The notes under the pieces were generated by a model. That model was given only the letters and a program-made list of their open reading frames with translations. It had not been told where the DNA came from and searched no databases. The position numbers and the translations under genes were made by a program. Shown in pieces: positions 31,754-48,346 of a stretch of 53,232 bases of DNA (position 1 is the stretch's first letter; each line of letters starts with the position of its first letter). This DNA comes from Bacillota bacterium (GTDB taxonomy: Bacteria > Bacillota > Clostridia > Saccharofermentanales > DTU023): positions 1 to 53,232 of the forward strand of contig JAKPXB010000002.1 in assembly GCA_029570375.1 (NCBI GenBank). Reading direction: 5' to 3'.

Positions 31754-31830
31754 GGCGGTATAGCTCAGTTGGCCAGAGCATTCGGTTCATACCCGAAGTG
31801 TCACAGGTTCAAATCCTGTTGCCGCCACCA
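31754..31830 (+). tRNA. tRNA-Met (CAT anticodon)
   Basis: All arms fold: acceptor GGCGGTA with TGCCGCC, anticodon loop TTCATAC, T-loop GGTTCAAATCC, and a coded CCA. The paired first base (G1-C72) points to an elongator tRNA rather than initiator. A CAT anticodon could also be tRNA-Ile2 after lysidine modification, which sequence alone does not settle. Confidence 0.93.
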
Positions 31831-31836
31831 GTTCAA

Positions 31837-31911
31837 GGCCCGATGGTCAAGTGGTTAAGACATCGCCCTTTCACGGCGGAGTCACGGGTTCGATCCCCGT
31901 TCGGGTCACCA
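31837..31911 (+). tRNA. tRNA-Glu (TTC anticodon)
   Basis: The acceptor GGCCCGA pairs with TCGGGTC (one G-T), the anticodon loop is CTTTCAC, the T-loop is GGTTCGATCC, and CCA is encoded. It lies 6 bases after tRNA-Met. Confidence 0.94.
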
Positions 31912-31917
31912 TTTTTT

Positions 31918-31993
31918 GGGATTTTAGCTCAGCAGGGAGAGCACCTGCTTCACACGCAGGGGGTCGTCGGTTCAAGTCCGGCAAATCCCACCA
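31918..31993 (+). tRNA. tRNA-Val (CAC anticodon)
   Basis: The acceptor GGGATTT pairs perfectly with AAATCCC, the anticodon stem-loop is CCTGC-TTCACAC-GCAGG, and CCA is encoded. It lies 6 bases after tRNA-Glu. Confidence 0.93.
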
Positions 31994-31999
31994 TCCGCG

Positions 32000-32033
32000 A
32001 AACCCTGAGGCTATTTGGTCACAGGGTTTTTGT
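32000..32033 (+). terminator. Terminator of the tRNA cluster
   Basis: AAACCCTG (32000-32007) pairs with CAGGGTTT (32022-32029) and runs into a T-stretch, seven bases after the tRNA-Val CCA. Confidence 0.8.
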
Positions 32034-32128
32034 TTCCCGGTCATCCTGCGCGAATCACAGCAAAACCGTATTTTGTCAGACTCATGAATAAATGAGTCTG
32101 TTATTCGTTAATAAACTGTGCAATGGCA

Positions 32129-32157
32129 TTGACATTGACGTTTTGGTGGTGTAATAT
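32129..32157 (+). promoter_or_regulatory. Main promoter candidate of the molybdenum-hydroxylase locus
   Basis: TTGACA (32129-32134) and TAATAT (32152-32157) are 17 bases apart. The predicted transcription start falls near 32164. The first intact gene begins at 32629, so the transcript would have a leader of about 460 bases that contains an operator-like palindrome and a transketolase gene fragment. Confidence 0.65.
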
Positions 32158-32164
32158 AAAGGCA

Positions 32165-32176
32165 ATTATCGATAAT
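32165..32176. promoter_or_regulatory. Palindromic operator candidate ATTATCGATAAT
   Basis: This perfect 12-base palindrome starts right at the predicted transcription start of the locus. The same sequence with one mismatch occurs at 47955-47966, upstream of the GntR/FCD regulator gene at the other end of the locus. Short symmetric dyads centred on TATCGATA-like cores suit FCD-type GntR regulators. Confidence 0.5.
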
Positions 32177-32376
32177 AGATAATGCATTTGTTCTATATAA
32201 AGTAAACCGTGAGCGAACTGATGTGAGTGAGTAGGAGCAGATAAAAAAGTCGGAATGAATCTATTCGGCTGAGGCTTATCGGTGCATCCTGATGAAGGGG
32301 AATCGTTCACGGCGGACAGGCGTTAAGCTGGTTTGGAAGGTGTCGACTAGTGGCAGGCATTAAGGAATCGCAGCGC

Positions 32377-32574
32377 ATGGAAGATAGAGAAATGTGGGAT
32401 GCTTTCTGTGGTACACTAATTTCTTTTTCTGATAGCTATCCCGATATCATTGTTCTGGATTGTGATTTATCCAATTTTTGCGGGACAAAGCGGATTTACC
32501 ATTGTTTCCCGGAGCGGGCATTTGACTGTGGCAACCAGGCGGCGGAATTATCGATGCCGTCAGGAATGTTCTGA
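32377..32574 (+). pseudogene. Truncated transketolase C-terminal-subunit fragment
   Basis: The frame beginning MEDREMWDAFCGTLISF and continuing SYPDIIVLDCDLS then FPERAFDCG matches the first 55 or so residues of the split transketolase beta subunit (pattern R-A-F-G-x-x-L ... P-D-V-V-x-L-D-A-D-L-S ... F-P-E-R-F-F-N-V-G). Homology fades after FDCGNQAAEL and the frame stops at 32574. The family needs about 300 residues, so this is a remnant. It shows that a carbohydrate-metabolism gene once stood at the head of this locus, or that DNA was deleted here. Confidence 0.6.
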
Positions 32575-32628
32575 ACAGAAAAAGATTTCCGGTGTGATCG
32601 TTCAGGAATGGGCGCGGGAGTTTCGAGA

Positions 32629-35016
32629 ATGGATTATATAGTTAAAACACGGCCAGCAAAAATAGACCCCTTATTCCCTGAGATCAATATTGATCCGGGT
32701 GATGTTTTTGATTTCCCCGACGATTCTGTTGAGCTTCCTGCGATAATCGGGAAATCATTACCCAGAAAAGACGGGCAGGAGAAAGTGACCGGCCGGACAA
32801 AGTTCGGAGCGGACCACAATATTCCAGGACAACTGTACGCAGCGGTATTGCATAGTACGGAAGCGCATGCTGTTATCAGGAAGATCGACACTTCGGAGGC
32901 GAAGAAGATTAAAGGGGTTCGGGCGGTGCTGACCGGAGAGGACTGCAAGGTGCGATTCGGGCACATGCTCGTCGACCAGCCGGTCCTGGCACAGGAGAAA
33001 GTCCGTTATTGGGGCGAGCCCGTTGCCGCCGTCGCCGCTGACACCCTTCATCTCGCGAAACTGGCGGTCAGAAAAATAAAAGTCGATTACGAACCACTTC
33101 CTGTCGTAGAGACGGTAGAAGATGCCTTGCGCGCCGATACGCTCGTCCACGAAAACTGGTCGGACTATCAGCTGCTGGGCGGATGTGCGCCTGTGCCGGG
33201 AACGAATATTGTGGATGAATTTGTTCTTGTCCACGGGGATGTGGAAAAGGGCTTTCGCGAAGCTGACGTGGTCGTTGAAAATGAGCTGTTCTGCAGCATG
33301 ATTCAGCATGCGCCGCTCGAGACCCACGCGGCGATCGCCATAGCCGACCATGATAATTGCCATATCATCTCACCCGCCCAATCGCCTTTCATGATTCGCA
33401 AAATCATCGCCAATGCTTTCGGGTACCGTCTGGACCGCGTCAGAGTGACTTGTACTGACATCGGAGGCGCGTTTGGCTGCAAAGTGGAGGCGCGGTTGGA
33501 ACCGCTCTGCGTGGCACTCGCCCGTCGGACGAAACGCCCTGTCAAACTCGTCTTCGAAAGGCATGAGGAATTTGCTGCGGCACTGGCACGCGCGGGAGTT
33601 AAGTTCAGGATCAAGACAGGCGCTACGAAAGAGGGAAAGCTCACCGCACAACAAATTTATATTTATTGGGATACAGGCGCTTACGCGACGTTTGGCCCCC
33701 GTGTGAACTATAATGCCGGTTTCGCGTCTAACGGTCCTTACTACATTCCCAACAGTTTTGTGGATGGTTTCTGTCTTGTATCGAATAAATCGCTCGGCAC
33801 CGCATACAGAGGTTTTGGTATCACGGAGGTTGCTTTTGCCCACGAAACGCAGATGGATGCCCTTGCGAATAAGCTCGGCATCGATCCTCTGGAGTTTCGC
33901 CTGAAGAATGCGCTGAGAAATGGCCAGGAGAGCGTCGCGGGAGAAGTGATGCAGGACGTCGGTATCTCAGAGTGCCTTGAGAAGGCGGCGGAGGCCGTTG
34001 GATGGTATGACGGACCTCTTCAGTGGCGGACGGCGGAAGGCAAGCTCCGCGGCAAAGGTATCGCCTGCTTCATCAAGCTGACAGGGACGCCGTCCACCAC
34101 ATCTGTCATGCTTCGAATGAACGAGGACGGGACAGTAACTCTTCTCTCCGGCAGCCGTGAGATGGGACAGGGAGTCGAGACCGTGCTGCCGCAGCTCGCA
34201 TCCTCCGTTCTCGGGATCGATGTAGAGCGGATCATCATGTCTCCCGTTGATACAGCCTTTACACCCTACGATAAGACGACAACTTCCAGCCGGTCAACCT
34301 TTCACGGGGGACTGGCGGTGATGGACGCTGCCCGGGATATGGTCCGGCAGCTGAAAGCTCTGATGGCCAGGCATTGGGATTGCCCGGTTGAAGAGATTAC
34401 ATACGATAAAGGCGTTATTCGCTGTCTGTTTGATCCCGAAGCAAGTGTTGATATCAACACTTCTTTTTTTACCAGATACCTGAAGGAAGAACCGCCGATC
34501 ATCGCCGTCGGCCGATACGGGACAAAAGATATTTTTTCGCCGCCTGATCCCGATACCCACCAGTCTGACAGACCGACGATCATGTGGATGATGGGGGCGC
34601 AGGCGGCTGAAGTGGAAGTCGATCCGGATACAGGGAGGACGAAAATTATCCGAATCGGCGCGGCGCACGATGTCGGCCGGGCGATCAATCCCGATAACTG
34701 CAGACAACAGATACAGGGCGCTGTCCTGATGGGCGTCGGCAACGCTCTGCTGGAAGAGATGATCTATGTGAACGGCGTGCTGGTTAATGCCAACATGGTG
34801 GACTATAAGATTCCCACATCGATGGATGCCGATTTCGAGACAATGGTGGATCTTGTGGAATGCCCGCATAATACAGGCCCTTACGGCGTCAAAGGGATTG
34901 GCGAGCCGGGAATGGCTCCGACCGCTCCCGCTATTGCTAACGCGATAAGCAGAGCGTGTGGCCACCAGTTTAAGTCAATTCCGGTAAAAGCCGAGCATGT
35001 TCTGTTCAGAGAATAG
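32629..35016 (+). CDS. Xanthine-dehydrogenase-family hydroxylase, molybdenum-binding large subunit
   Basis: This 795-residue protein is the molybdopterin-cofactor subunit of a xanthine dehydrogenase/aldehyde oxidase/4-hydroxybenzoyl-CoA reductase-type enzyme, which hydroxylates or reduces carbon centres with water as oxygen donor. It contains the N-terminal a/b hammerhead region (KVTGRTKFGADH), IGGAFGCKVEARLEP, the substrate-pocket stretch YRGFGITEVAFAHE, and the catalytic glutamate E759 in KGIGEPGM. ATG 32629 follows GGGAG at 8 bases; an upstream ATG at 32608 is weaker. The FAD and 2Fe-2S subunits follow in the order L-M-S. The substrate is unknown. Confidence 0.9.
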   Translation: MDYIVKTRPAKIDPLFPEINIDPGDVFDFPDDSVELPAIIGKSLPRKDGQEKVTGRTKFGADHNIPGQLYAAVLHSTEAHAVIRKIDTSEAKKIKGVRAVLTGEDCKVRFGHMLVDQPVLAQEKVRYWGEPVAAVAADTLHLAKLAVRKIKVDYEPLPVVETVEDALRADTLVHENWSDYQLLGGCAPVPGTNIVDEFVLVHGDVEKGFREADVVVENELFCSMIQHAPLETHAAIAIADHDNCHIISPAQSPFMIRKIIANAFGYRLDRVRVTCTDIGGAFGCKVEARLEPLCVALARRTKRPVKLVFERHEEFAAALARAGVKFRIKTGATKEGKLTAQQIYIYWDTGAYATFGPRVNYNAGFASNGPYYIPNSFVDGFCLVSNKSLGTAYRGFGITEVAFAHETQMDALANKLGIDPLEFRLKNALRNGQESVAGEVMQDVGISECLEKAAEAVGWYDGPLQWRTAEGKLRGKGIACFIKLTGTPSTTSVMLRMNEDGTVTLLSGSREMGQGVETVLPQLASSVLGIDVERIIMSPVDTAFTPYDKTTTSSRSTFHGGLAVMDAARDMVRQLKALMARHWDCPVEEITYDKGVIRCLFDPEASVDINTSFFTRYLKEEPPIIAVGRYGTKDIFSPPDPDTHQSDRPTIMWMMGAQAAEVEVDPDTGRTKIIRIGAAHDVGRAINPDNCRQQIQGAVLMGVGNALLEEMIYVNGVLVNANMVDYKIPTSMDADFETMVDLVECPHNTGPYGVKGIGEPGMAPTAPAIANAISRACGHQFKSIPVKAEHVLFRE

Positions 35017-35035
35017 GGAACGCCCGGGGTGAGAT

Positions 35036-35179
35036 ATGGACAAAAGCTTTTCCGCGCAGGAAAAGGACAAGAACCGGGATGAGGTGTCAACAGTATCAGC
35101 CTGCCGCCACGCGGCAGCCTTCGGGACGGCGTCCCGGACAAAAGAAATGAAAAGAGTGTTATATGCTGCCCGCTTTTAA
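35036..35179 (+). CDS. Possible 47-residue ORF between hydroxylase subunits
   Basis: An ATG behind GGGGTGAG opens a 47-codon frame (MDKSFSAQEKDKNRDEV at its start) that runs across the intergenic region and 17 bases into the FAD-subunit gene. It matches nothing I recognise. Its overlap could couple translation of the FAD subunit, whose own ribosome site is weak. The same stretch holds two GC-rich hairpins, so it could equally be untranslated. Confidence 0.25.
   Translation: MDKSFSAQEKDKNRDEVSTVSACRHAAAFGTASRTKEMKRVLYAARF
35101..35135 (+). promoter_or_regulatory. Two adjacent intercistronic hairpins
   Basis: CTGCCGC-CAC-GCGGCAG (35101-35117) and GGGAC-GGC-GTCCC (35123-35135) form two perfect stem-loops between the large-subunit and FAD-subunit genes. 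Neither has a T-tract. They could stabilise or space the mRNA segments. Confidence 0.45.
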
Positions 35180-36020
35180 GCTCCTGGAGCCAAACACCAT
35201 AGAGGAAGCCTGTCGGATCGCGCTCGATACGGACGGCATGTTTCTGGCCGGAGCGACAGATATTTTTGTCGCGATGCACGGCGGCGCCCTGTTCCCGGAA
35301 ACACTGATCAGTCTCGCAAAAATCGATGCGCTCCGGGACATCCGAAAGACCGATCAGGGGATTTTCATCGGTGCGCTTACCCCACATCGCTATTTTGAAT
35401 TCAACCAGGTGATGAAAACACGCTATACCGCGATTCATGAAGGGTGCGCGCAAGTCGGTTCCCCGCAGATCCGCAACCGGGGAACGATCGGGGGCAACCT
35501 TTGTAACGGCGCTCCTTCCGCGGACAGCGCAGGTCCGCTCCTTGTTTTTGATGCTGTCTGCGTGATTGTGGGCGCGGCATATGAGAGGACGCTCCCTCTT
35601 CGCGAGTTTTATCTGGGGCCAAAAAAAACAGCGCTGAGGAAAGGCGAATTGCTTAAGAGTATTTATCTTCCCGAGCCGGTGAGCCGATCCGCCAGCCGCT
35701 ATATAAAATTTACGCGCCGCAACGCGATGGATTTGGCCTTGTTGGGTGTTTCCGCCTATCTGGCACTCGATGACAGCGGCGGGATCGCGGATGCCCGCCT
35801 CGCGCTGACTACCGCGGGGCCTACACCCATCAGAGCAGGGGAAGCGGAACGCCGGCTGATTGGCCACAAGCCTTGTGACAGCCTGTTTTCTGAAGCAGCC
35901 GCCATCGCGGAAAATGAATCGCTGCCGCGCACAAGCTGGCGTTCAAGCAAAGAATTCCGGCTTAAGCTGGTGAAATCGCTGACGGAGAAAGCACTCCGTG
36001 AAGCTTTTGAGCGCATCTGA
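35163..36020 (+). CDS. Hydroxylase FAD-binding medium subunit (CoxM/XdhB-like)
   Basis: This 285-residue protein is the FAD subunit that passes electrons from the Fe-S subunit to an acceptor. It has the N-terminal FLAGATDIFVAM loop and the classic flavin motif RNRGTIGGNLCNGAPSAD near residue 100, with the usual CO-dehydrogenase flavoprotein C-terminal domain. The insertion with a 4Fe-4S cluster that marks 4-hydroxybenzoyl-CoA reductase is not seen, since the length is that of ordinary CoxM-type subunits. It has a weak ribosome site. Confidence 0.9.
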   Translation: MLPAFKLLEPNTIEEACRIALDTDGMFLAGATDIFVAMHGGALFPETLISLAKIDALRDIRKTDQGIFIGALTPHRYFEFNQVMKTRYTAIHEGCAQVGSPQIRNRGTIGGNLCNGAPSADSAGPLLVFDAVCVIVGAAYERTLPLREFYLGPKKTALRKGELLKSIYLPEPVSRSASRYIKFTRRNAMDLALLGVSAYLALDDSGGIADARLALTTAGPTPIRAGEAERRLIGHKPCDSLFSEAAAIAENESLPRTSWRSSKEFRLKLVKSLTEKALREAFERI

Positions 36021-36047
36021 TGCGGGGTGTCCGGGAGGAGAACAAAG

Positions 36048-36521
36048 ATGGATTGGCGTGATGTAACGGTATATGTAAACGGAGACGAGTACACGAAGAC
36101 AATTCCTGTACAGATGACGCTGGCGGAGTTCCTGAGAGATGAGCTCTTTCTCACAGGGACAAAGATCGGCTGCAATGAAGGCGAGTGCGGAGCGTGTACA
36201 GTCATTCTGGACGGCGTCGCGGTCAACTCCTGTCTGGTCCTGGCCGTCCACGCCGATGGGAAAAATGTACTGACAATTGAAGGCGTTTCGGAAGGGGAGC
36301 TCCATCCACTCCAGCAGGCTTTTCTTGACGCTGGCGCTGTGCAGTGCGGCTTTTGTACCCCGGGGATGATTATGACCGCTAAAGCGCTTCTTGACAGGGA
36401 TCCAGCACCTTCACGAGAGGTGATCAGGAAAGAGATAGAGGGAAATTTGTGTCGTTGTACGGGATACAACAGAATCATCGACGCAGTAGAAAAAGCGGCG
36501 CTGATGTTGCAAAAACGCTAA
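36048..36521 (+). CDS. Hydroxylase 2Fe-2S small subunit
   Basis: This 157-residue protein carries two 2Fe-2S clusters: the plant-ferredoxin type (CNEGECGACT plus a later Cys) and the helical type (CGFCTPGM and CRCTGY). It completes the hydroxylase encoded just upstream. The ATG at 36048 follows GGGAGGAG. The next gene follows after 32 bases. Confidence 0.93.
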   Translation: MDWRDVTVYVNGDEYTKTIPVQMTLAEFLRDELFLTGTKIGCNEGECGACTVILDGVAVNSCLVLAVHADGKNVLTIEGVSEGELHPLQQAFLDAGAVQCGFCTPGMIMTAKALLDRDPAPSREVIRKEIEGNLCRCTGYNRIIDAVEKAALMLQKR

Positions 36522-36553
36522 GATTTTTTCGAGGGAAATCAAAAGGAGGCTTT

Positions 36554-38254
36554 ATGAGCACGGAAAGAAAAATCTATGCAACATTCTTCGGAAATGAAGA
36601 ATACCCTGTGGAATGGAAAGATGAACAGGAGAAGGACTTGATGTGGTTCTACGATGACCTGCACTGTCCGAATCCTATTTCGCCTCTCTATTTCGATGTA
36701 GGCGGGTGGTGGGGAACCACATGTGCGTATATGTATCGGCGTTTTGGCGCTCCTATTGGCAGTGAATGGCTGGCAAAGAAAATAAACGGATACGTGTACA
36801 CGGCGATTGTGCCGCCCAAGACGGCTCCGCATCAGGTCGCCGGTCTCTTCGAGTATTACAACAAAGTTTTGCCGATTTACGCGGATCAGTTCCTTGACAG
36901 ATGGAAGAAGGAGTATATTCCTAATCTCCAGAAGTGGGGAAAAGTGATGATCGATTTTGACTGGAAAAACGCGTCGATCCCCGAAATGCTGATCCATATG
37001 GAGGACTGTCTCGATCTTCAGCAGCGCGCATTTGAGATTCACTGGATCATGAACCTCGCGCAAGTTGCCGCTTCGGGAGAATTCCAGGCAGTATATAACG
37101 AGCTTATTCCGGAAGATCCTGATGAGGATTATCCTCAGATCACGATTTCAAGCCATGACCGCAACTGGGATTCGCTTCACGCCTTGTGGCAGATCAAGGA
37201 AGCGATCATGAAGAACCCCGCCCTGAAGCAGTTGTTCCTGGATAAAAAAGAAGAAGAGATCATGGAACAGCTTCCCGCAGTGGACGGAGGCAGGGAAATC
37301 GTCGATATGATTGATGCCTATCGGAATGAATATGGCTTTAAAGCGATGTATTCACACGAGTATATCTTCCCGACATGGTATGAAGCTCCCGCGCCCATCT
37401 ACGCGGCCGTCAAAGGATATGTCGAGACGGATTACAACTATCTCGAGCATTACGAGGGCTGCATTAAGAATCAGTCGGAAGCGATCGAGCGCGCGAGAAG
37501 CAAGATCAGCAATCCCGAAGACCTGAAGCGGTTCAATGAAAAGCTTGAGCTGTGCCTGAAGATGATGCCGCTGACACCGGACCACCATTTCTACATCGAC
37601 CAGGCCATCTACGCCCACATGAGACTGATGTTCCTGGAAATCGGCAAGGCGTATGCGGCGGCCGGAAAGCTCGATGATCCCGAAGATATCTTCATGCTCG
37701 AATATGAGGACATCCGGTGTCTGGGAGTTACCGACGATTATCCCGGAAAAGAGATCGCAGCCAAAAACAGAGCGGCGATGGAAGAAGCGTATAAGCACAA
37801 TCCCCGCTACTGGTATGGCACGGTCGACCACTGGCAGCTCTATGAGGAAATTTACAAACAGGTTCTCTGGGGCTATCCGGAAATCTTCGAAAAGGAGATG
37901 AAGGAACTGGAAGAAAAGAAGCCGATCAGTAAGACGGTGATTAATGGTATCGGCGGATCAGCCGGTGTGATGGAGGGGATTGCGCGCGTTGTCTCAACGC
38001 CGGCGGAGTTCGACCAGATTCAGCAGGGAGATATTATGGTCTGCAGAATGACAAACCCCGGATGGATTGTGAGCTTCTCGAAGATCTCCGCCCTGGTGAC
38101 AGACACCGGCGGCGCGTTGTCTCACCCGGCTGTTGTCTCCCGGGAATTCGGTATTCCCTGCGTTGTCGGGACAACCCGGGCGACGAGACTCATTAAAACC
38201 GGTGACCGCGTCCGTGTCGATGGCAATGCCGGTGTTGTGGAAATTCTCGAGTAA
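36554..38254 (+). CDS. Phosphotransferase subunit with C-terminal swivelling-histidine domain (phenylphosphate-synthase-alpha / RPH-like)
   Basis: This 566-residue protein ends in a PEP-utilising-enzyme mobile domain: the motif DTGGALSHPAVVSREFGIP holds the phosphocarrier histidine H524. Residues 1-470 are not the PEP-binding barrel of PEP synthase but a separate region (starting near FYDDLHCPNPISPLYFDVG) that in rifampin phosphotransferase and phenylphosphate synthase corresponds to the acceptor-binding part. No ATP-grasp is present; it is supplied by the gene after it. Length and content match a subunit that takes phosphate from His524 and gives it to a small-molecule hydroxyl. AAGGAGG precedes the ATG. 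The acceptor is unknown. Confidence 0.78.
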   Translation: MSTERKIYATFFGNEEYPVEWKDEQEKDLMWFYDDLHCPNPISPLYFDVGGWWGTTCAYMYRRFGAPIGSEWLAKKINGYVYTAIVPPKTAPHQVAGLFEYYNKVLPIYADQFLDRWKKEYIPNLQKWGKVMIDFDWKNASIPEMLIHMEDCLDLQQRAFEIHWIMNLAQVAASGEFQAVYNELIPEDPDEDYPQITISSHDRNWDSLHALWQIKEAIMKNPALKQLFLDKKEEEIMEQLPAVDGGREIVDMIDAYRNEYGFKAMYSHEYIFPTWYEAPAPIYAAVKGYVETDYNYLEHYEGCIKNQSEAIERARSKISNPEDLKRFNEKLELCLKMMPLTPDHHFYIDQAIYAHMRLMFLEIGKAYAAAGKLDDPEDIFMLEYEDIRCLGVTDDYPGKEIAAKNRAAMEEAYKHNPRYWYGTVDHWQLYEEIYKQVLWGYPEIFEKEMKELEEKKPISKTVINGIGGSAGVMEGIARVVSTPAEFDQIQQGDIMVCRMTNPGWIVSFSKISALVTDTGGALSHPAVVSREFGIPCVVGTTRATRLIKTGDRVRVDGNAGVVEILE

Positions 38255-38318
38255 CATGCGTGTTTGAATTCCGTCCCCGGCTTCTCGTTGTCATGAGGGG
38301 GCCGGGGACACCCGCATG
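38255..38318 (+). promoter_or_regulatory. Large stem-loop between the two phosphotransferase genes
   Basis: GTCCCCGGC (38273-38281) pairs perfectly with GCCGGGGAC (38301-38309), and an outer stem CATGCG/CGCATG (38255-38260, 38313-38318) extends it. There is no T-tract. It begins right after the stop codon of the histidine-domain gene and may set the stoichiometry of the two subunits by mRNA processing or partial termination. Confidence 0.6.
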
Positions 38319-38360
38319 GATGGGTGAAATGACCTACTTGTAGTGTTGAGGAGAAAAAAG

Positions 38361-39317
38361 ATGGCTTTAGTAGCTTGGTTTGATGAAATACAGCGTGACA
38401 ATATGGGTGATGTGGCCGGCGGCAAGGGCGCGAGCCTGTGTTCTCTCTTTCAGAGCGGCTTCCCGGTTGCTGAAGGATTTATGGTGTGTTCACAGGCCTT
38501 CAGAGAATTTATGACAGACAATCAACTCTGGGAAGAAGTATTGAAAACCATAGAAAGCATCGATTGGGAGGACGATTGTTCTCTTTCGTCAGCCGGCGAG
38601 CGTCTGCGGAGCAGGATTATGAACGCCCCCATGTCAGAAGACCTCATTCAATTGATTTCTCAATACTATGCAAGGTTTGGTGAGGATGTGCCGGTGGCCG
38701 TCCGGTCAAGCGGAACAGCTGAAGACCTGGAGGACACCAGTTTTGCCGGTCAGCAGGAAACTTTTCTCTACGTCGTCGGCAAGGATAATCTTGTTCAATT
38801 TATCAAAGCCTGTTGGGCGTCGCTCTATAACGACTGCGCGATCTTTTACCGCAGGGAAAAGGGCTTCGATGAGAGTGAAATCGCGATCGCTGTTGTCGTT
38901 GAGAAAATGGTAAATTCGGAAAAATCCGGTGTCTTGTTTACGACCAATCCCATCACCAATGACCGGTCCGTTGTCATGATTGAAGCGACCTGGGGATTAG
39001 GGGAAGGGTTGGTTCAGGGACTGGTCAATCCTGATAACTACGTCATTCAGAAAGAAACGTGCGTATTCGATTCGCGCTATATCGCTGAAAAAGAAATCAT
39101 GATTGTCAGGAAAGACGCATGTGGAGGTGTGGAGACGGTTGATGTGCCGGGCGAACTCCTGAACGCTCCGGTATTAACCGATGATGAATGTAAACAACTG
39201 GTCGAACTGGCGCGAAAGACGGAAGCGTATTATCAGAAGCCTCAGGATATTGAATGGGCATTTGAGAATAATAAGTTATATCTTCTGCAGTCGCGGCCCA
39301 TTACGACCTTAAAATGA
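38361..39317 (+). CDS. ATP-grasp (PPDK_N) subunit of the split phosphotransferase
   Basis: This 318-residue protein is a stand-alone pyruvate-phosphate-dikinase/PEP-synthase N-terminal ATP-binding domain. It shows GGKGASLCSLFQSGFPVAEG at the start, VAVRSSGTAEDLEDTSFAGQ in the middle and DIEWAFENNKLYLLQSRPITT at the end. In the parent family this domain uses ATP (to AMP and phosphate) to charge the swivelling histidine. Together with the preceding 566-residue protein it totals about 884 residues, close to single-chain rifampin phosphotransferase. GAGGAG precedes the ATG. Confidence 0.85.
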   Translation: MALVAWFDEIQRDNMGDVAGGKGASLCSLFQSGFPVAEGFMVCSQAFREFMTDNQLWEEVLKTIESIDWEDDCSLSSAGERLRSRIMNAPMSEDLIQLISQYYARFGEDVPVAVRSSGTAEDLEDTSFAGQQETFLYVVGKDNLVQFIKACWASLYNDCAIFYRREKGFDESEIAIAVVVEKMVNSEKSGVLFTTNPITNDRSVVMIEATWGLGEGLVQGLVNPDNYVIQKETCVFDSRYIAEKEIMIVRKDACGGVETVDVPGELLNAPVLTDDECKQLVELARKTEAYYQKPQDIEWAFENNKLYLLQSRPITTLK

Positions 39318-39362
39318 TCTCCCGGTATCCCCGGAATTCAGTTTAATGATGGAGGCTGTAGT

Positions 39363-39887
39363 ATGAGCTTTAAGAAATTGCTGGTGTACGCGGCGCTTAC
39401 CGCTTTGCTCGCGGGTGTCGTTACACTTGTAACATGGCAGATGAATGGATGGCCGACAAATGCCGGTCAGCCGCTGACCTACGTGTCATTCATTTCGTGG
39501 GCATCCTACTTCCTGTTTGGAGCGAACGTCAAAGGTGCCACGAAGGCTTTCACGTCAATTATCGCCGGTATTGCGGCGGCGATCCTGATGTTTGTCCTGT
39601 CCATCGCGTTTGGTTTCATGCCCTGGTGGGCGGTACCTCTCGCCGTAGTCATCCTGGTTATTCCGATGATGCTCGCCGAGCGTGTTCCCCCCATTAACAA
39701 TGTGGCGGCGATCTTCCTCGGAACAGGTGTGTATTTTTCGCTGTCGGCGGCCGGCGCATTTAAAGATTTCACTTTCCCGCAGTATATGCTTGTAGGGGCG
39801 GCTGAACTGCTGTATGTGCTGATCGGATTCGCGGCAGGCTGGATAACAATCTGGTTCAACCAGAAGGTTTCCGCGGAGAAAAAATGA
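39363..39887 (+). CDS. Five-helix membrane protein (DUF1097-like)
   Basis: This 174-residue protein has five or so membrane helices and an N-terminal KKLLVYAALTALLAGVVTL. The pattern of small residues and the SWASYFLFGANVKG segment recall DUF1097 (YcdZ-like) inner-membrane proteins of unknown function. It is the only membrane protein of the locus, so it may be a channel or facilitator for the substrate. GGAGG precedes the ATG. The family call is tentative. Confidence 0.6.
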   Translation: MSFKKLLVYAALTALLAGVVTLVTWQMNGWPTNAGQPLTYVSFISWASYFLFGANVKGATKAFTSIIAGIAAAILMFVLSIAFGFMPWWAVPLAVVILVIPMMLAERVPPINNVAAIFLGTGVYFSLSAAGAFKDFTFPQYMLVGAAELLYVLIGFAAGWITIWFNQKVSAEKK

Positions 39888-39914
39888 GTTTCCCGGGCTG
39901 CATTTGTGTCTGAC

Positions 39915-39957
39915 GGCGGAGGGTGGCTTTCCATTGCGGAAAGAGCCGCTCTCCGCC
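39915..39957 (+). promoter_or_regulatory. Strong stem-loop after the membrane-protein gene
   Basis: GGCGGAG...GGCTTTCC pairs with GGAAAGAGCC...CTCCGCC around an ATTGC loop. No T-tract follows. It is the third strong intercistronic hairpin of the locus. Confidence 0.5.
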
Positions 39958-40000
39958 AATAATAAGCGCGATGATCCCTTTTTCTGAGGCTTGTGATCGA

Positions 40001-40462
40001 ATGGAAGAATACGACAGAAAAGTTCCCGCCAGGGTAGAAGACTATTTCTACAGAGGCGGTCTGAACTGTGCGGAGAGCACTTTGCGCGTTCTGATTGAAC
40101 GGGAGATAATCGACGCTCCTCTTCGCTGTACCGCCATGATGTCCGGTTTCGGGGGCGGCTTGCAGCGCGGTCTCGTCTGCGGCGCGGTTACAGGCGCCGT
40201 CGCCGCTCTCGGGTGGGTATTCGGACGAGTCGAACCGGGAGCGCCGCGGGAACCCTCAGCCAGAGCGGTCAAAGAATTCCTCGCACGTTTTGAGGACGTT
40301 TTCCATGCGGTCGAATGCGATACGCTTCGGCAGATTAATTCTCCGGGCCAGGAATTGAAATCCGATGGTATGTACAGCCACTGTGCTTTAGTTGTGAGAA
40401 CGGCAGCGCATATCGCTGCGTCAATCATACAGGAGAACACGGATTGGAAAACCGCGCGTTGA
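40001..40462 (+). CDS. C-GCAxxG-C-C family redox/metal protein
   Basis: This protein of about 153 residues matches the C_GCAxxG_C_C family: GLNCAEST near the start, GFGGGLQRGLVCGAVTGAVAALG in the middle, then isolated cysteines in CDTLRQ and HCALVV. Conserved cysteines suggest an Fe-S or other metal site; the family has no assigned reaction. The start is uncertain (ATG 40001 or 39971). Confidence 0.75.
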   Translation: MEEYDRKVPARVEDYFYRGGLNCAESTLRVLIEREIIDAPLRCTAMMSGFGGGLQRGLVCGAVTGAVAALGWVFGRVEPGAPREPSARAVKEFLARFEDVFHAVECDTLRQINSPGQELKSDGMYSHCALVVRTAAHIAASIIQENTDWKTAR

Positions 40463-40507
40463 TCAGGGTAAGAACAGCGTACGGACGAGAGGATGCACAG
40501 GTGTGCG

Positions 40508-41317
40508 ATGGACAGGTTGATTGTATTGGGAACAGGACAGGCTGTCTGTCTCCGGTATCACAATACAGCTTTTGCGCTGTATGACGGTGACCAGTATTTA
40601 TTGGTCGACGGCGGAGGCGGCCACGAGATTCTGACCTGTTTCGATCAAACGGGCATTGAATGGCAGCGGCTTCACTATGCGTTCCTGAGTCATGAGCACA
40701 CCGATCATATGCTGGGGATGGTATGGGTGGTGCGCTACGTTGCTGAATTGATCAACTGGGGACGCTACGCAGGAGATTTTACAGTCTATTCACACGATGT
40801 GGCCATTGCAAAGCTGTATCAGATTTGTAATCTGCTTTTGAAGCCGGCGCAGTTTGAACTGATCGGCAGGAGAATCCATATGGAGGTGGTCCGGGATGGA
40901 CAGAAGCTGGATATCCTGGGGAATACATTGATCTTTTTTGACATTCATTCAAAGAAAGCGAAACAATTTGGTTTCAGGCTGGAGACAGCTAAGGGCGTAC
41001 ATATGGTGTTTCTGGGCGACGAACCCTTTTCCGAGGAGACAGCGCCCTATATGGAACCCTGTGACTGGATGCTGACCGAAGCATACTGTCTCGACAGCGA
41101 ACGCAGTCGCTATCGTCCCGCGGAACTAAACCATTCTACGGTGAGAGAAGCGTCTGAGTGCGCCGAGCGTTTTAAAGCAAAGAATCTGGTGATCTGGCAT
41201 ACGGAAGACGAATCGACATACGGGCGGAGAAAGGAATTGTACGCGAGGGAGGCGAAACATTATTACAGTGGACGTATTTTCGTGCCGGATGATTTTGACG
41301 TGATCACCCTCACATAG
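40508..41317 (+). CDS. Metallo-beta-lactamase-fold hydrolase (RNase Z/arylsulfatase-like)
   Basis: This 269-residue protein has a canonical dinuclear zinc site: LSHEHTDHMLG (HxHxDH), later FLGDEPF with the bridging aspartate, and a C-terminal NLVIWHTED histidine. The fold variant is that of RNase Z and arylsulfatase-like hydrolases rather than lactonases. In this operon it probably hydrolyses a pathway intermediate (ester, phosphodiester or lactone); that is inferred. ATG 40508 is preferred over the ATG at 40493. Confidence 0.85.
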   Translation: MDRLIVLGTGQAVCLRYHNTAFALYDGDQYLLVDGGGGHEILTCFDQTGIEWQRLHYAFLSHEHTDHMLGMVWVVRYVAELINWGRYAGDFTVYSHDVAIAKLYQICNLLLKPAQFELIGRRIHMEVVRDGQKLDILGNTLIFFDIHSKKAKQFGFRLETAKGVHMVFLGDEPFSEETAPYMEPCDWMLTEAYCLDSERSRYRPAELNHSTVREASECAERFKAKNLVIWHTEDESTYGRRKELYAREAKHYYSGRIFVPDDFDVITLT

Positions 41318-41451
41318 TAAAGCGTACAGAGAATGAAGAGTATCCACGATCATTCCTGGAGCCCTGTCAAGGAGATAAGCCTGTCATAACGTCAGAAGGT
41401 CACTATTATTAGAAAATAAAAATTGCTCCGGCAATTCATAAGGAGAAAAAA

Positions 41452-41850
41452 ATGCTTGTCATCAATGAGAAAGAAGTTCCTGAAAAAGCTGTACCGGGCC
41501 GGTTTCTTCGCTGGGTCGTTTCAAGGACGGAAGGCCTGCCCTCTGAAGAATGTTCCTTCTGTGTGATGAGGGTTCAGCCAAAGGAGACTGTCCGTCCGGC
41601 TCATTCACATCCGGACTGTGAAGAGCTGGTATATTTCATCAGCGGACGAGGTCATGTCTATGTCGATGGGGTGATAACGCCCGTCAGTGAAGGGAGTGCC
41701 GTTCTCTTCCCGAAGAACAGCGTGCACATGGTGAGAAACTCAGGGGAAGAAGAAATGAAAGTGGCCTGTTTCTTCTCGGCGGCTACGGATCTCGCGCACT
41801 ACGCATTTCACCCAGACACCTGTTTTGATGAGGGGGTAAGCTGTGAATAA
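41452..41850 (+). CDS. Cupin-2 domain protein
   Basis: This 132-residue single-domain cupin has the first metal motif HSHPDCEELVYFISGRG and a second motif PKNSVHMVRNSG. Such proteins act as isomerases, dioxygenases, lyases or sensors. AAGGAG precedes the ATG. Its stop overlaps the next gene, so it is coupled to the SMP-30-like protein. Confidence 0.85.
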   Translation: MLVINEKEVPEKAVPGRFLRWVVSRTEGLPSEECSFCVMRVQPKETVRPAHSHPDCEELVYFISGRGHVYVDGVITPVSEGSAVLFPKNSVHMVRNSGEEEMKVACFFSAATDLAHYAFHPDTCFDEGVSCE

Positions 41851-42877
41851 AAATAATCCATTATACGGTTTCGAGATTGATCCCGACGCTGTTCGGTTTA
41901 TCGGAGAGGATCTGCAGCGGCCTGAATGCATACTCGCGGAAGCAGACGGAAGTCTCTGGTCCGCGGACGCGCGCGGCGGAGTCGTGCATATCAGGCCGGA
42001 CGGTACGCAGAAAATTATCACACAGAAGCGCACGGATTTGATTGATATAAACAAAGGCGCCGCCTCGCGCTTCTTTGTCGGCACGCTTCCCAATGGTCTC
42101 GCCTTTGCGGAAAACGGGGATATCCTGATCGCAAACTTCGGACTCGACTGCGTCGAGATCATGAAGCGGTCAGGTGAAACAGAAGTCCTTTTTGATGAAA
42201 TTGAAGGAAGAAAAATCGGCAAAACGAATTTTATTCTCCGCGACTCGAAGAACAGACTCTGGGTAACAGTCACGACAATGAAGGAAGACTGGCTGGACGC
42301 GCTGGTGCCTGATCTTGATGACGGTTATCTCGCTCGTTTCGATGAGAACGGAATCGAAATTGTGGCGGACGGACTTCATTTCACGAATGAGATCCGCTTT
42401 GACGAGAAAGAAGAGTATCTGTACTGTGTAGAAACTGTTGGCCACAACGGCGGACGGATTGTACGCTTCCGGTGCGACAGGAGCGGACGCCTCTCTGACA
42501 AGGAAATATACGGTCCCTCTGACTGGGGGGCGGGCGCTTATCCCGATGGTATCGCGTTTGACAGTTATGGGAACCTCTGGGGAACAATGGTTTATTCAGA
42601 TAAAATCTTCGTAATTACCCCCGACGGAGAAGGCAGGATCCTGCTCGACATGGGTGACCCGGCTAAAGTCCAGGCGCTTGATGATGCGTTTTATGAAAGC
42701 CGCGTGACCATGGATAAGCTGTTCGCGACCGGTCAGGGTATCGCGCCCTGGATGGCCAGCATCACGTTCGGCGGTCCTGACCTCAAGAATGTTTATGTAG
42801 GTTGTCTGCGCGGCAGTCGAATTCCCTATTTCAGGTCACCTGTCGCGGGGATGCCGATGGTGCATTGGAATCGATGA
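41843..42877 (+). CDS. SMP-30/gluconolactonase-like beta-propeller protein
   Basis: This 344-residue protein resembles SMP-30/LRE lactonases: RPECILAEADGSLWSAD at the first blade with the metal glutamate, LPNGLAFAENGDILIA, FTNEIRFDEKEEYLYCVE and YPDGIAFDSYGNLW with the metal asparagine/aspartate positions. It would hydrolyse a sugar-acid or other lactone. It starts at a GTG (41843) behind GAGGGGG and overlaps the cupin stop by 8 bases. Confidence 0.83.
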   Translation: MNKNNPLYGFEIDPDAVRFIGEDLQRPECILAEADGSLWSADARGGVVHIRPDGTQKIITQKRTDLIDINKGAASRFFVGTLPNGLAFAENGDILIANFGLDCVEIMKRSGETEVLFDEIEGRKIGKTNFILRDSKNRLWVTVTTMKEDWLDALVPDLDDGYLARFDENGIEIVADGLHFTNEIRFDEKEEYLYCVETVGHNGGRIVRFRCDRSGRLSDKEIYGPSDWGAGAYPDGIAFDSYGNLWGTMVYSDKIFVITPDGEGRILLDMGDPAKVQALDDAFYESRVTMDKLFATGQGIAPWMASITFGGPDLKNVYVGCLRGSRIPYFRSPVAGMPMVHWNR

Positions 42878-42977
42878 TTGGAGGACAGCGCGCGATCGGC
42901 GCTGCCCCGCGGTTTCCACGGCGGTTTTTGCCCGATTGTGCCATAACGGCTGAGCATGTATTTCCCGGGAGGATCCT

Positions 42978-44042
42978 ATGGAAAAGATGAAGGCAATCGT
43001 TCTACATGAACCCAACAATTTTACTTACACAGAGATCGATCGGCCGGTCATCGGTGATTATGATGTCCTGTGCCGTGTGGAATCGGTTTCTATTTGCGGA
43101 ACGGATCCGAAAATAATTCACGGCCATTTCCCCGGATTCTGGCCACAGCATTTCCCTATTGTTCTGGGTCACGAATGGTCCGGGGTAATCACGGAAGTCG
43201 GCGCTAAATCCGGGTATTTCGGCTGGGAAGAGGGTGACCGTGTCTGCGGCATCGCGAATGTGGGCTGCGGTTACTGCAAAAACTGCCTGGAAGGCCGGTT
43301 TACGCTCTGCCTGAACTACGGAAATGAAAAAGTTCACAAAATGTACGGTCACATCACAAACGGGGCATACGCGGAGTACATCGCCGCGAACATCAAGTCA
43401 ATCGCGAGAATACCGGATGATATGGATTTCAATACAGCCGCTGTGATGGATACCTTCAGCATCGCGCTCCATGTCGTGATGCGAAGCGGTCTGGAACCGG
43501 GAGATACCGTCCTGGTCAATGGCGCCGGTGCTCAGGGGTGGTTCGCCATCCTCGCGGCAAAAACGATGGGAGCGGGGAAAATTATCTGTGCAGGGAGCGG
43601 CCATCGCCTCCGTATGGCTCAAAAACTCGGTGCGATCCCCCTTGACTACCGCTCGGAAGATGTCGCCGCGAGAACCCTTGAGCTTACCGGCGGACTTGGG
43701 GCGAAAAGAGTCATTGAAACGACCGGTTCCGCAAAGGGGATAAGAAACGCATGTGTGGCGGCCGCACGGGGAGGCTGTATCTCCTGCGTGGGATTCCCGA
43801 ATGAGGATGTGCCGATCCCTGTGAAACGCCTTGTCATGGATGAAATCGATTTCGTGGGGAATCGCGGCAATCCGAATACCTTAGAAAAAGCCATTTCAGT
43901 AGCTCATTACGTGATGGACGAGATTAATATGCTGATTACGCATGAATTCCCTCTTGCGGAGTATGCGAAAGCGTTGGAGGTTTTTGAGAACCGGCTCGAT
44001 CACTCACTGAAAGTTATCGTAAAACCTCAATGGCTCAAGTGA
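42978..44042 (+). CDS. Zinc-dependent medium-chain alcohol dehydrogenase
   Basis: This 354-residue MDR enzyme oxidises a secondary alcohol with NAD(P). It has the catalytic zinc ligands in SICGTD and GHEW, the structural zinc cysteines in CGYCKNCLEGRFTLC, and a Rossmann loop VNGAGAQGWFA near residue 180. It resembles threonine/sorbitol dehydrogenase-type members. GGGAGGA precedes the ATG. The substrate is probably a pathway intermediate. Confidence 0.9.
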   Translation: MEKMKAIVLHEPNNFTYTEIDRPVIGDYDVLCRVESVSICGTDPKIIHGHFPGFWPQHFPIVLGHEWSGVITEVGAKSGYFGWEEGDRVCGIANVGCGYCKNCLEGRFTLCLNYGNEKVHKMYGHITNGAYAEYIAANIKSIARIPDDMDFNTAAVMDTFSIALHVVMRSGLEPGDTVLVNGAGAQGWFAILAAKTMGAGKIICAGSGHRLRMAQKLGAIPLDYRSEDVAARTLELTGGLGAKRVIETTGSAKGIRNACVAAARGGCISCVGFPNEDVPIPVKRLVMDEIDFVGNRGNPNTLEKAISVAHYVMDEINMLITHEFPLAEYAKALEVFENRLDHSLKVIVKPQWLK

Positions 44043-44130
44043 TCACGACACCGATACGGATCATTGACCGGTTGTGAATGAACAGGATGGATAGAGAGAA
44101 GCCTTAACGGCTCCGGGAGGAATAGAATAA

Positions 44131-45048
44131 ATGGGTATCTTTACAGAAGAATTTTCCAGTGACCGCGCGAAGCTCCGGTTTGATGTAGTGGGCGGTCCGC
44201 CCCGCAGCAGGATTGTCGAAGACGATACTTTCCTGAATTACCGGCTGGGATCAGTCAAAACGAGCCAAGGCTCCACAAAGCTGCGGCCGGACATTGTCTG
44301 GTACTATGATGAACCGGAAAAGGGTATCGCGTTTAAGGACGATCAGCTGATTCTGAAAAGCCGATGGGAAGAGGGTGAGCTGAATAAGATATTAGTGTCC
44401 ATGCTTGCCAATGAGATGGATAAGCAGGGGCTGCATCCTTTTCACTCTTCCTCTGTTATCTACAGGGGGCAGATGATTCTGCTTGTCGGGGGCGAGAATA
44501 ATCACGGGAAGTCCATGACGCAGCTCGAGGGGTGCCGCCGCGGAGCGCTCATTTTCTCCACAGAGACGACGGTGACAGACGCAAAAGGGTATGCGCTCTA
44601 CGGGTCCAAAAATGTCTATATTCGCAAGCGGGCGAAAGGGACGGAGCGAAGCGATATTCCCGACCAGGATGAAGGAGTATTGAAATTCTGGGAGAAGGAA
44701 CCGGAGATGAAGCTGACATATGAGCCTTCAGAAATACATCTCGCGATCATGCCATGTATCGATGGCCATTTCGATACACAGGTGACGAGAATGAATCAAT
44801 TTGAGGCGAGCTATCAGAGTTATCACAGCCTGATGAATTTCTTTGGCCTGAACCAGCTGTTATGCGGTGAGAAGGGGCTGGCGATGCCGATTATCGACAC
44901 GGATGAAAGGCATCAGGCGCGCGCCGCGTTTGTGTCGGAATTCGTTTCCGGGCGTCCATTCTACCTGGTACGGGGGAAGACGCCTCAGATTGTTTTCGAC
45001 GAGATTGAGCATATAATGACTGAGTTGGGAATGAACGGTTCTATTTAG
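44131..45048 (+). CDS. HprK/PEPCK-like P-loop protein of unknown function
   Basis: This 305-residue protein shows, near residues 105-150, the arrangement of HPr-kinase-type P-loop proteins: LHPFHSSSVIYRGQ, then ILLVGGENNHGKSMTQ with a modified P-loop (GENNHGKS), then a short strand with STETTVTD where the family has an acidic pair. The N-terminal 100 residues and C-terminal 120 are unlike anything I recognise. It could phosphorylate a small molecule or a protein, or have lost activity. GGGAGGA precedes the ATG. It lies between the dehydrogenase and a metallohydrolase, so a catabolic role is likely. Confidence 0.6.
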   Translation: MGIFTEEFSSDRAKLRFDVVGGPPRSRIVEDDTFLNYRLGSVKTSQGSTKLRPDIVWYYDEPEKGIAFKDDQLILKSRWEEGELNKILVSMLANEMDKQGLHPFHSSSVIYRGQMILLVGGENNHGKSMTQLEGCRRGALIFSTETTVTDAKGYALYGSKNVYIRKRAKGTERSDIPDQDEGVLKFWEKEPEMKLTYEPSEIHLAIMPCIDGHFDTQVTRMNQFEASYQSYHSLMNFFGLNQLLCGEKGLAMPIIDTDERHQARAAFVSEFVSGRPFYLVRGKTPQIVFDEIEHIMTELGMNGSI

Positions 45049-45066
45049 AAAAACGGAGGGATATCG

Positions 45067-45921
45067 ATGCAGCAGTTGACTTCACATGTATACGTTGAAA
45101 CGGAGATAAGAGGGTGTAATCCGGGTATTGTTTTTACGGATGAAGGTTCCGTTTTTGTCGATACCGCCCAGTGGATCAGCAAACTACTGGAAATGCGTGG
45201 GTTTGCGCTTTCCCGCGGACCGATCCGGGCGCTCATCAACACAGAATCACACATCGACCATATTTTCGGGAATCACTGGTTTGCCGGGGAATGTCCTGTT
45301 ATCGGGCATGAAAACCTGGAGAAGACATTCTGGAAGATTCCGGCGGCATTCAATCAGACGACATACGATTACAGTGTCGATATCATTCGCCGGCAGGATC
45401 CCGAAGCGCTCCATCTGATGCCCTCAGAAAAAGACTATATTCTCAATAAGCCAAATGTCACGTTCAGCGACAGGCTCTTTTTCAAGCTGGGGGATCATGA
45501 TTTCAGACTCTACTATACGCCGGGGCACTCAGACGCCAATATCAGTGTTTTTGTTCCTCAGGAAAGAACCGTATTTGTCGGAGATACGGTCTTCAGCCAA
45601 TGCCAGATCTGGCTCCATACGGCGAATTTCGATGACCTTTTCCGTTCGCTCCGCTTTCTCGGCACACTGGATGTCGACTATATTGTGCCCGGCCACGGGC
45701 CCGTCGTCGGTAAAGCGGCTCTCCACCAGCAGGAGGCATTTCTGCACGAATGGATTTCCGCGGTTGCTTACGGAGTCGCGAAAGGATGGGATGAGGAGGA
45801 GTGCGTTCAGCGAATCTCCTTCGCGGACCGGTGCCCTGTAGATATCGGGCAGGCGGAAGAGATGGAATATATTCAGACGCACAATGTCAGGGTTGTCTAC
45901 AATTACCTGATGAACAACTAG
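45067..45921 (+). CDS. Metallo-beta-lactamase-fold hydrolase with a changed first zinc ligand
   Basis: This 284-residue protein has a glyoxalase-II/lactamase-type fold with TESHIDHIFGNHWF, YYTPGHSDANI, FVGDTVF and VPGHGPVV. The first zinc histidine of HxHxDH is glutamate here (ExHxDH), while the other ligands are present. The site may hold a different metal or only one. GGAGGG precedes the ATG. It is the second hydrolase of this fold in the operon. Confidence 0.85.
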   Translation: MQQLTSHVYVETEIRGCNPGIVFTDEGSVFVDTAQWISKLLEMRGFALSRGPIRALINTESHIDHIFGNHWFAGECPVIGHENLEKTFWKIPAAFNQTTYDYSVDIIRRQDPEALHLMPSEKDYILNKPNVTFSDRLFFKLGDHDFRLYYTPGHSDANISVFVPQERTVFVGDTVFSQCQIWLHTANFDDLFRSLRFLGTLDVDYIVPGHGPVVGKAALHQQEAFLHEWISAVAYGVAKGWDEEECVQRISFADRCPVDIGQAEEMEYIQTHNVRVVYNYLMNN

Positions 45922-45937
45922 AGGTGAGGGGATCACG

Positions 45938-46897
45938 ATGAAGCTTGATGGAGTCAATCAGATTGCGGTGATCGGGACGGGCATGATCGGCGCAAGCCTT
46001 GCGACCTTATTTACGGGCAACGGCTACCACACGACGATGATCGCGTTCGATGAACAGGATGCTCGCAACGGGCTGGAGCGCTACCGGACAAATTTCAAAG
46101 ATCTCATCGGCTTCGGACTGGTGACTGAATCGCAGGCGGACGCGTGCGAAAAGCTGCTTTCCATCGAAACAGGCTTTTCGGCGCTTCGGGATGCCGATTT
46201 CATATACGAATGCGTGATTGAGGATTTTGAGGTCAAACGAGCTGTTTACAGTCAGGTCGAAGAGTACGGCTTTAAGGTTCGTGCGATCGCGTCATCGTCT
46301 TCCGCGATGGATACGAATCTCCTCAGCCGGGGGTTTTCGAAACCGGATTTTATTGAGCGATTCGCTTCTGCTCATCCATGGAATCCGCCGCATCTTGTGC
46401 CGTGTGTGGAGATTGTGAAAGGGGACAAAACCTCGGAAGAAGCGCTGACATTTATCTGTGAGCTTCTCGAGTCGTGCGGGCGCGCCCCTGTCATCATTCA
46501 CAAGAGCGTTCCCGGGTTTATCGCCAACAGGCTCCAGCACGCGCTGTACCGCGAAGCCGCCAACATGGTGGAACAGGGTATCGCCTCTCCGGAGGATATC
46601 GACAGAGCGCTTATGACGAGTTTCGCGCCACGCTACGGCAGTATCGGTATATTCCAGCATTTTGATTACGCGGGGCTGGATATGGTACTGAGTATTCAAA
46701 AAACGCTGTTCCCTGACCTGTCCGCGACAACCTCACCCAATCCGCTTGTTCTGGAAGCCTGCGAAAAAGGGGACCTGGGGTACAAGACAGGTAAAGGTAT
46801 CCTGAACTGGGAAGATGTTGACATCGATCAGTTCCGCGAGAACGCGTCCAAACCTTATCTTAAGTTCTTCAACTGGAGCCTGCCGGACGCGCAATAA
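45938..46897 (+). CDS. 3-hydroxyacyl-CoA-dehydrogenase-family oxidoreductase (gulonate/carnitine dehydrogenase-like)
   Basis: This 319-residue NAD-dependent enzyme has the Rossmann loop GTGMIGASLA, IASSSSAM, AHPWNPPHLVPCVEIV and the C-terminal helical domain with SVPGFIANRLQHAL. AHPWNPPHLVP is typical of the members that act on free hydroxy acids such as L-gulonate or carnitine; no CoA-handling genes are nearby. It is the last gene of the locus and has a GAGGTGAGG site. Confidence 0.87.
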   Translation: MKLDGVNQIAVIGTGMIGASLATLFTGNGYHTTMIAFDEQDARNGLERYRTNFKDLIGFGLVTESQADACEKLLSIETGFSALRDADFIYECVIEDFEVKRAVYSQVEEYGFKVRAIASSSSAMDTNLLSRGFSKPDFIERFASAHPWNPPHLVPCVEIVKGDKTSEEALTFICELLESCGRAPVIIHKSVPGFIANRLQHALYREAANMVEQGIASPEDIDRALMTSFAPRYGSIGIFQHFDYAGLDMVLSIQKTLFPDLSATTSPNPLVLEACEKGDLGYKTGKGILNWEDVDIDQFRENASKPYLKFFNWSLPDAQ

Positions 46898-46959
46898 ATC
46901 CCGACAGCGAAGGGATTCAACAGAAAAGCCTTTTTACGGCTGTCGCCGAATAATGAAAT

Positions 46960-47014
46960 GCCGGGGCTCCGCAAGCTTTTCCAATAGTGGTGGAAAAGCT
47001 TGCTGGTTCCCGGC
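46960..47014. terminator. Long hairpin between convergent genes
   Basis: GCAAGCTTTTCCA (46971-46983) pairs over 13 bases with TGGAAAAGCTTGC (46991-47003) around ATAGTGG, and an outer GCCGGG/CCCGGC stem extends it. It lies between the dehydrogenase and the convergent regulator gene. It lacks a T-tract, so it may block read-through from both sides or mark an RNA 3' end. A second, weaker stem (CGACAGC 46902-46908 with GCTGTCG 46939-46945) precedes it. Confidence 0.55.
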
Positions 47015-47082
47015 TTACACTTCGGACGGTCTCTCCTGTTTCCGCGCACTGAAAAGTATTCGCCTGGAGTATTCTTCGGGCT

Positions 47083-47745: not shown

Positions 47746-47954
47746 GAAATAATCTCCGATCCTGTCAGTCACAGTATCCAGCAACAAAGCATTCGTTTTT
47801 ATTATTCTAGCATGAAAAATGATACGAAAGCCAAGCGAATGAATAGGTACTGCATTGGCGGATCGCACATTTATCGGTCAATCTGCTCGGAAAATGATGT
47901 GAATTTTACGGATCCTGTCTCGACTAACACGCTGTGATTGCGAACCATCAAACT

Positions 47955-47966
47955 ATTATCGATAAA
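47955..47966. promoter_or_regulatory. Second copy of the operator-like dyad
   Basis: ATTATCGATAAA differs by one base from the palindrome at 32165-32176. It lies about 210 bases upstream of the regulator start, within the spacer of a possible minus-strand promoter, so autoregulation is plausible. Confidence 0.45.
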
Positions 47967-48270: not shown

Positions 48271-48300
48271 TTGACAAAAGGGGATAGATTTTGCTAAGAT
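48271..48300 (+). promoter_or_regulatory. Promoter of tRNA-Gly/tRNA-Cys
   Basis: TTGACA (48271-48276) and TAAGAT (48295-48300) are 18 bases apart, 46 bases before tRNA-Gly. Confidence 0.75.
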
Positions 48301-48346
48301 AGCGGAGCGCTGTTAGTCCGATGGAGGACTTGAGCAATGTGACTTC

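Follow-up and report, generated by a model that had tools for sequence, protein, structure and literature searches.

In the window, the 53,232-nucleotide stretch of Bacillota DNA analyzed here, two adjacent genes encode the subunits of a putative small-molecule kinase. They lie within a cassette inserted between tRNA genes, with the following features.

31994–48346, no strand: inserted segment with the whole cassette, between tRNA-Val and tRNA-Gly, delimited by comparison with congeners
32608–35016, plus strand: large subunit of an XDH-type molybdopterin hydroxylase (xdhA-like)
35163–36020, plus strand: XDH-type FAD subunit (xdhB-like)
36048–36521, plus strand: 2Fe-2S subunit of the XDH type (xdhC-like), its start codon picked from the ribosome-binding site
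36554–38254, plus strand: alpha subunit, 'hisS', 566 residues, ATG to stop, from Pfam, alignment and model
38273–38309, plus strand: GC-rich hairpin in the hisS–atpG spacer (spacer MFE –39.8 kcal/mol, z –2.7; no T-run)
38361–39317, plus strand: beta subunit, 'atpG', 318 residues, ATG to stop, from Pfam, profile and alignment
41452–44042, plus strand: cupin, SMP-30/gluconolactonase-like protein and zinc alcohol dehydrogenase, also found together in locus L014
44131–45048, plus strand: p305, a 305-residue P-loop protein of PEPCK/HprK fold, from searches, alignment and model
45067–45921, plus strand: metallo-beta-lactamase-fold hydrolase (MBL2), recurring in the locus
45938–46897, plus strand: 3-hydroxyacyl-CoA-dehydrogenase-like NAD dehydrogenase, recurring in gut relatives
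47083–47868, minus strand: GntR-type regulator, present at 30 of the 36 loci flanked by 8 kb or more on both sides (well-flanked loci)

The tRNA-Met-Glu-Val (31754–31993) and tRNA-Gly-Cys (48347–48539) clusters of the window are 16.35 kb apart. In three congeners the corresponding gap, at sites near contig ends, is only 89–121 bp and the five-tRNA array is intact. Thus, the segment carrying the cassette genes 32608–47868 is an insertion, which bounds the functional unit. Furthermore, full-length hisS was absent from all 59 relatives searched in the genus, family and order. The cassette is a horizontally acquired island. On the 3' side of the second tRNA cluster, positions 48683–52524 are low in GC (0.41–0.43) and hold two AAA-ATPase-like genes, DUF4143-like by eye.

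The genes hisS and atpG are two separate open reading frames, with ribosome-binding sites AAAGGAGG 5' of the ATG at 36554 and GAGGAG 5' of the ATG at 38361, respectively. Reading of the frames and of the sequence confirmed the coordinates, lengths and His motif given in the initial annotation; the histidine, H524 of the 566-residue protein, sits in VTDTGGALSHPAVVSRE. The hairpin in the 106-bp spacer may be a processing or attenuation element, or may set the stoichiometry of the subunits. Relatives are encoded at 80 loci, the majority of them full length, at 39%–58% identity, and H524 is invariant in an alignment of 50 sequences. Conservation of the pair and of its key residues across dozens of genomes rules out chance or artefact.

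In the 566-residue protein, Pfam recognized only the PEP-utilizers domain (PF00391; residues 489–560, E 1e-24). An AlphaFold model built from the 50-sequence alignment (mean pLDDT 92) divides the chain into a helical acceptor domain (about 12–450) and a C-terminal swivel-His domain (about 460–566). The six top Foldseek matches of this model were the six entries of rifampin phosphotransferase (RPH; E 4e-20 to 4e-16). Superposition of this single-chain model by VIA-align placed residues 13–566 on residues 313–867 of RPH (5fbt), with a Z score of 27.5 over 493 residues, 3.9 Å and 20% identity. The hisS profile also aligned with RPH without a break across the acceptor and swivel domains (E 3e-47). 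The N-terminal region first described as unknown is therefore real but no orphan, being a homologue of the RPH acceptor domain by both profile and fold. The predicted structure bore out the claim that a PEP-binding barrel is missing: it displays the secondary structure of the helical acceptor domain and no PEP/pyruvate (beta/alpha)8 barrel. Matches of PEP synthase, PPDK, enzyme I and pyruvate kinase to the protein fall mainly in the swivel. There, the motif T/SxxGGxxxH reads T516-DT-G519-G520-ALS-H524, with G519, G520 and H524 invariant.

The 318-residue protein matched PPDK_N alone in Pfam (PF01326; residues 18–317, E 2e-100), with neither a swivel nor an acceptor domain, and its profile hit the ATP-grasp domains of PEP synthase and RPH at E 1e-113 and 1e-95, respectively. 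Its invariant residues K22, R115 and T134 are the counterparts of RPH Lys22, Arg117 and Thr136, which position the alpha–beta bond of ATP (PMC4844700). Profiles, model and superposition thus agree with the initial proposal of a three-part architecture on two chains, the acceptor and swivel domains belonging to hisS and the ATP-grasp domain to atpG.

Two-component dikinases are an already published subfamily (PMC12167813), in which PpsAB acts on phenol, CreHI on 4-cresol, and HpeHI on acetovanillone and 4-hydroxyacetophenone (PMC12167813; PMC9618137). For HpeHI, the ATP-grasp component has been crystallized and its structure solved, AMP was seen in a dikinase assay, and a histidine proved essential (PMC12167813; PMC9618137). 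In solution, its subunits HpeH and HpeI did not associate stably (PMC12167813). The idea of a split RPH is supported yet not new, as PpsAB, CreHI and especially HpeHI (2025) already define such dikinases.

The window hisS aligned end to end with PpsA, CreH-like and HpeH-like proteins at E values of 2e-37 to 2e-43 and 25%–27% identity. The best of these alignments, with the alpha subunit PpsA (E 2e-43, 26% identity), substantiates the proposed kinship with phenylphosphate synthase. PpsAB (Thauera, Aromatoleum), compared here through the ppcBDAG operon of Azoarcus KH32C (L102), shares the split, the gene order and the end-to-end homology; it differs in its 26.5% identity and in its phenylphosphate carboxylase genes, which the window lacks. 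HpeHI of Rhodococcus rhodochrous GD02, compared via a Rhizobium homologue in an hpeCBA-like operon, resembles the window pair in having the acceptor and swivel-His chain first and the ATP-grasp chain second, the T/SxxGGxxxH motif, an RPH-like fold and an H.F[YW] block instead of the RE..K of RPH. It is, however, only 25% identical and belongs to another clade, and the window has an XDH trio and a PEPCK-fold protein in place of a biotin carboxylase operon. CreHI (4-methylbenzyl phosphate synthase) is likewise a two-component kinase. The Rhodococcus pair at L104, a putative CreHI on our reading of its genomic context, includes a CreH-like protein at 26.7% identity, but its two genes are in reverse order and its surroundings are of the P450/ferredoxin kind. 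Of the three reference operons read, PpsAB (L102) and the HpeHI-like operon (L107) place the His subunit gene ahead of the ATP-grasp gene, and L104 places it behind. Hence the His-first order, correctly noted for the window, is not unusual and does not distinguish it. No phenylphosphate carboxylase, biotin carboxylase or P450 gene was found among the cassette genes 32608–47868.

PpsA, CreH and HpeH proteins are 43%–45% identical among themselves. Taking about 40%–45% mutual identity and a common clade as the mark of the phenolic kinases, the window protein falls outside. In a tree computed by a quick method and containing several long branches, the window clade (68 rows, support 99) is separate from the PpsA/CreH/HpeH clade (support 100). 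The two clades nevertheless have in common a [DN]H.F[YW] block, defined from the present alignment, where RPH has RE..K. Among NCBIfam models, the best full-length match was to the PRK08296 'hypothetical protein' family (NF006153 and others; residues 22–566), but the score of 193.7 bits is well under its 578-bit cut-off, and the family has no assigned function. Taken together, the window pair most likely belongs to the two-component small-molecule dikinases of the PpsAB/CreHI/HpeHI kind, as a separate, uncharacterised clade. Plasmids of Rhodococcus (L103:7650–13690) and Mycobacterium avium (L108:1499–6864) each pair a short PEP-utilising protein with a PPDK-like protein, surrounded by acyl-CoA dehydrogenase genes; these pairs may form a further group of two-component dikinases.

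The strong PEP synthase matches of the swivel and ATP-grasp domains raise the question of a genuine PEP synthase or pyruvate phosphate dikinase of central metabolism, its barrel lost or encoded elsewhere. We consider this extremely improbable, given that a complete RPH-type helical acceptor domain stands where a barrel is needed, that the PEP synthase model scores far under its cut-offs (351.9 against 598 bits and 108.8 against 598), and that the genes lie in a transferred, catabolic-looking island. A split RPH, serving as an antibiotic-inactivating kinase for resistance rather than catabolism, would accord with RPH being the closest solved structure and having the three identical domain types. 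However, the Listeria enzyme is a single chain with the ATP-grasp domain first. Its acceptor site needs Arg666 and Glu667, and Lys670 belongs to the same hydrogen-bond network (PMC4844700); an alignment of the clade with PpsA, CreH, HpeH and RPH revealed that 343-DHHFYIDQ-350 replaces this R666-E667..K670 block in the window protein. In addition, the rifamycin-phosphotransferase model scores 126 and 300 against a cut-off of 999, and the linkage is instead to a hydroxylase, dehydrogenases, lactonases and a GntR regulator, which makes a resistance role very unlikely. Membership of either family was rejected on the features tested, namely no barrel, two chains and no R666-E667..K670.

The cassette tends to travel as a unit, given that the distances among its proteins co-vary. 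Those of hisS and atpG correlate at r 0.925 over 37 loci, and hisS distances also track p305 (r 0.928), MBL2 (0.872) and xdhA (0.787), with none of 2000 permutations as high in each case. XDH genes are present at 30 of the 36 well-flanked loci. Further neighbours, whose set differs between locus types, include lactonase, cyclase, FAH, SDR, transaldolase, mmsA, LarA-type racemase and PDH E1-type genes; as a substrate clue they may point to hydroxy-acid or ring-opening chemistry. In Moorella stamsii (L013:15705–21662), the cassette continues into genes for archaeal-type GAPDH, PGK, a protein resembling malate racemases of the LarA family, and PDH E1 subunits. None of the papers searched for the substrate mentions the cluster.

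Members of the window clade come from six phyla, among them gut Oscillibacter, soil Chloroflexota and Rhodobacterales. We typed the loci by tblastn and profile searches across the 80 relatives, plus the annotated Thermomicrobium roseum locus; presence was called from these matches because greedy ORF calling performs unreliably where GC content is high. Type A loci, mostly of anaerobes and including the window, combine hisS, atpG and p305. Type B loci (Thermomicrobium, Bacillus, Actinomycetota, Thermogemmatispora and Rhodobacterales) have hisS and atpG without p305, and FAH, ABM and cyclase genes are usual; FAH, present at 25 of the 35 type B loci, is missing from all 32 loci of type A or C. 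Type C loci (soil Chloroflexota and some Actinomycetota) have hisS and p305 and, within the locus, no stand-alone atpG. Overall, about 18 clade loci are devoid of a stand-alone ATP-grasp gene, which counts against the dikinase reading. A protein of 720–750 residues with a PPDK-type ATP-grasp domain and its own swivel, present in 8 of the 18 type C loci, is possibly a swapped phosphoryl donor. Such proteins, with an extra C-terminal region, were seen at L067:1227–3482, L074:15406–17691, L078:16910–19165 and others. Genome searches yielded short ATP-grasp matches in frames of similar length for most type C genomes and no ATP-grasp match at all for two; the genome of L078 has a good stand-alone atpG-like match elsewhere, outside the locus. 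Replacement of atpG in type C loci is thus no more than suggested.

The partner p305 accompanies the dikinase in locus types A and C, two of the three. Among 250 Oscillospiraceae genomes, p305 and hisS occur in the identical two, one being the seed. It matched no Pfam or NCBIfam model, nor was a match found among annotated plasmids. Its model (pLDDT 90) adopts the PEPCK/HprK fold by Foldseek (E 2e-7). VIA comparison gave a Z score of 12.6 with ATP-PEPCK (248 residues, 12% identity, covering PEPCK residues 97–457 only) and of 11.0 over 127 residues with HprK/P. A profile search also matched ATP-PEPCK (E 3.5e-4), with H105 and K86 of p305 opposite the metal-ligand His and Lys; we take K213 and H232 of E. 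coli PEPCK to have these metal-ligand roles. W79, H105 and K127 are invariant and K86 is nearly so. The protein thus carries the PEPCK core of P-loop, metal-ligand His and Lys. A full-length ATP-dependent PEPCK was rejected, p305 having 305 residues and no N-terminal domain.

Based on these comparisons, the pair very probably phosphorylates a small molecule with ATP. By analogy with characterised homologues, the reaction is likely ATP + HO-R + H2O -> AMP + Pi + R-O-phosphate via phospho-H524. In this putative cycle, ATP would be bound by the 318-residue ATP-grasp subunit, and H524 on the swivel domain of hisS would accept the beta-phosphoryl group, with release of AMP and Pi. Afterwards, the swivel would move to the helical RPH-like acceptor domain, where a phenolic, enolic or lactim hydroxyl would be phosphorylated. 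The initial suggestion that the upstream hydroxylase supplies the acceptor gains support from the conserved linkage, which makes the XDH-type enzyme the most likely one to produce the acceptor or to process it further. Phosphorylation may ready the acceptor for what follows, in the manner of the phenol and hydroxyphenylethanone pathways, in both of which carboxylation of the phosphorylated product ensues.

At 25%–27% identity to characterised members, a different acceptor chemistry is possible, such as ligation of the PigC/RedH type through a phosphoryl intermediate. The pair would then be an ATP-dependent ligase or ring-opening enzyme whose phosphorylated substrate is transient, as in these prodigiosin ligases, and no phosphorylated metabolite would be released. 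Consistent with this, models of the relatives PigC and RedH match the same regions of the pair, and lactonase-, cyclase- and FAH-type hydrolases are among the neighbours. Such a ligase appears improbable, however, in that the nearest full-length two-chain homologues are kinases that release their phosphorylated product (PMC12167813) and that PHP- or histidine-phosphatase-type genes recur nearby.

For the kinase reading, a more speculative scheme has the acceptor produced by the XDH enzyme and the following step carried out by p305 or FAH/ABM. In its specific form, which we put forward tentatively and consider unlikely, XDH would make a hydroxy, enol or lactim acceptor, the dikinase would phosphorylate it, and p305 would carboxylate or decarboxylate the enol-phosphate-like product with nucleotide turnover, FAH/ABM replacing p305 in aerobic relatives. 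If true, the XDH–dikinase–p305 module would apply the logic of PPDK plus PEPCK to a molecule other than pyruvate.

In summary, the split two-chain design is known from phenol-degrading bacteria, and what is new is a separate branch in a cassette with XDH and a PEPCK-like protein. The two-component dikinases characterised so far serve aromatic catabolism, and homologues in processes beyond it were explicitly anticipated (PMC12167813). The window clade is large and separate, and travels on a mobile cassette, where its partners are a recurring molybdenum hydroxylase and a PEPCK-fold protein that lacks annotation. It probably acts on a common substrate, within a so far undescribed pathway.
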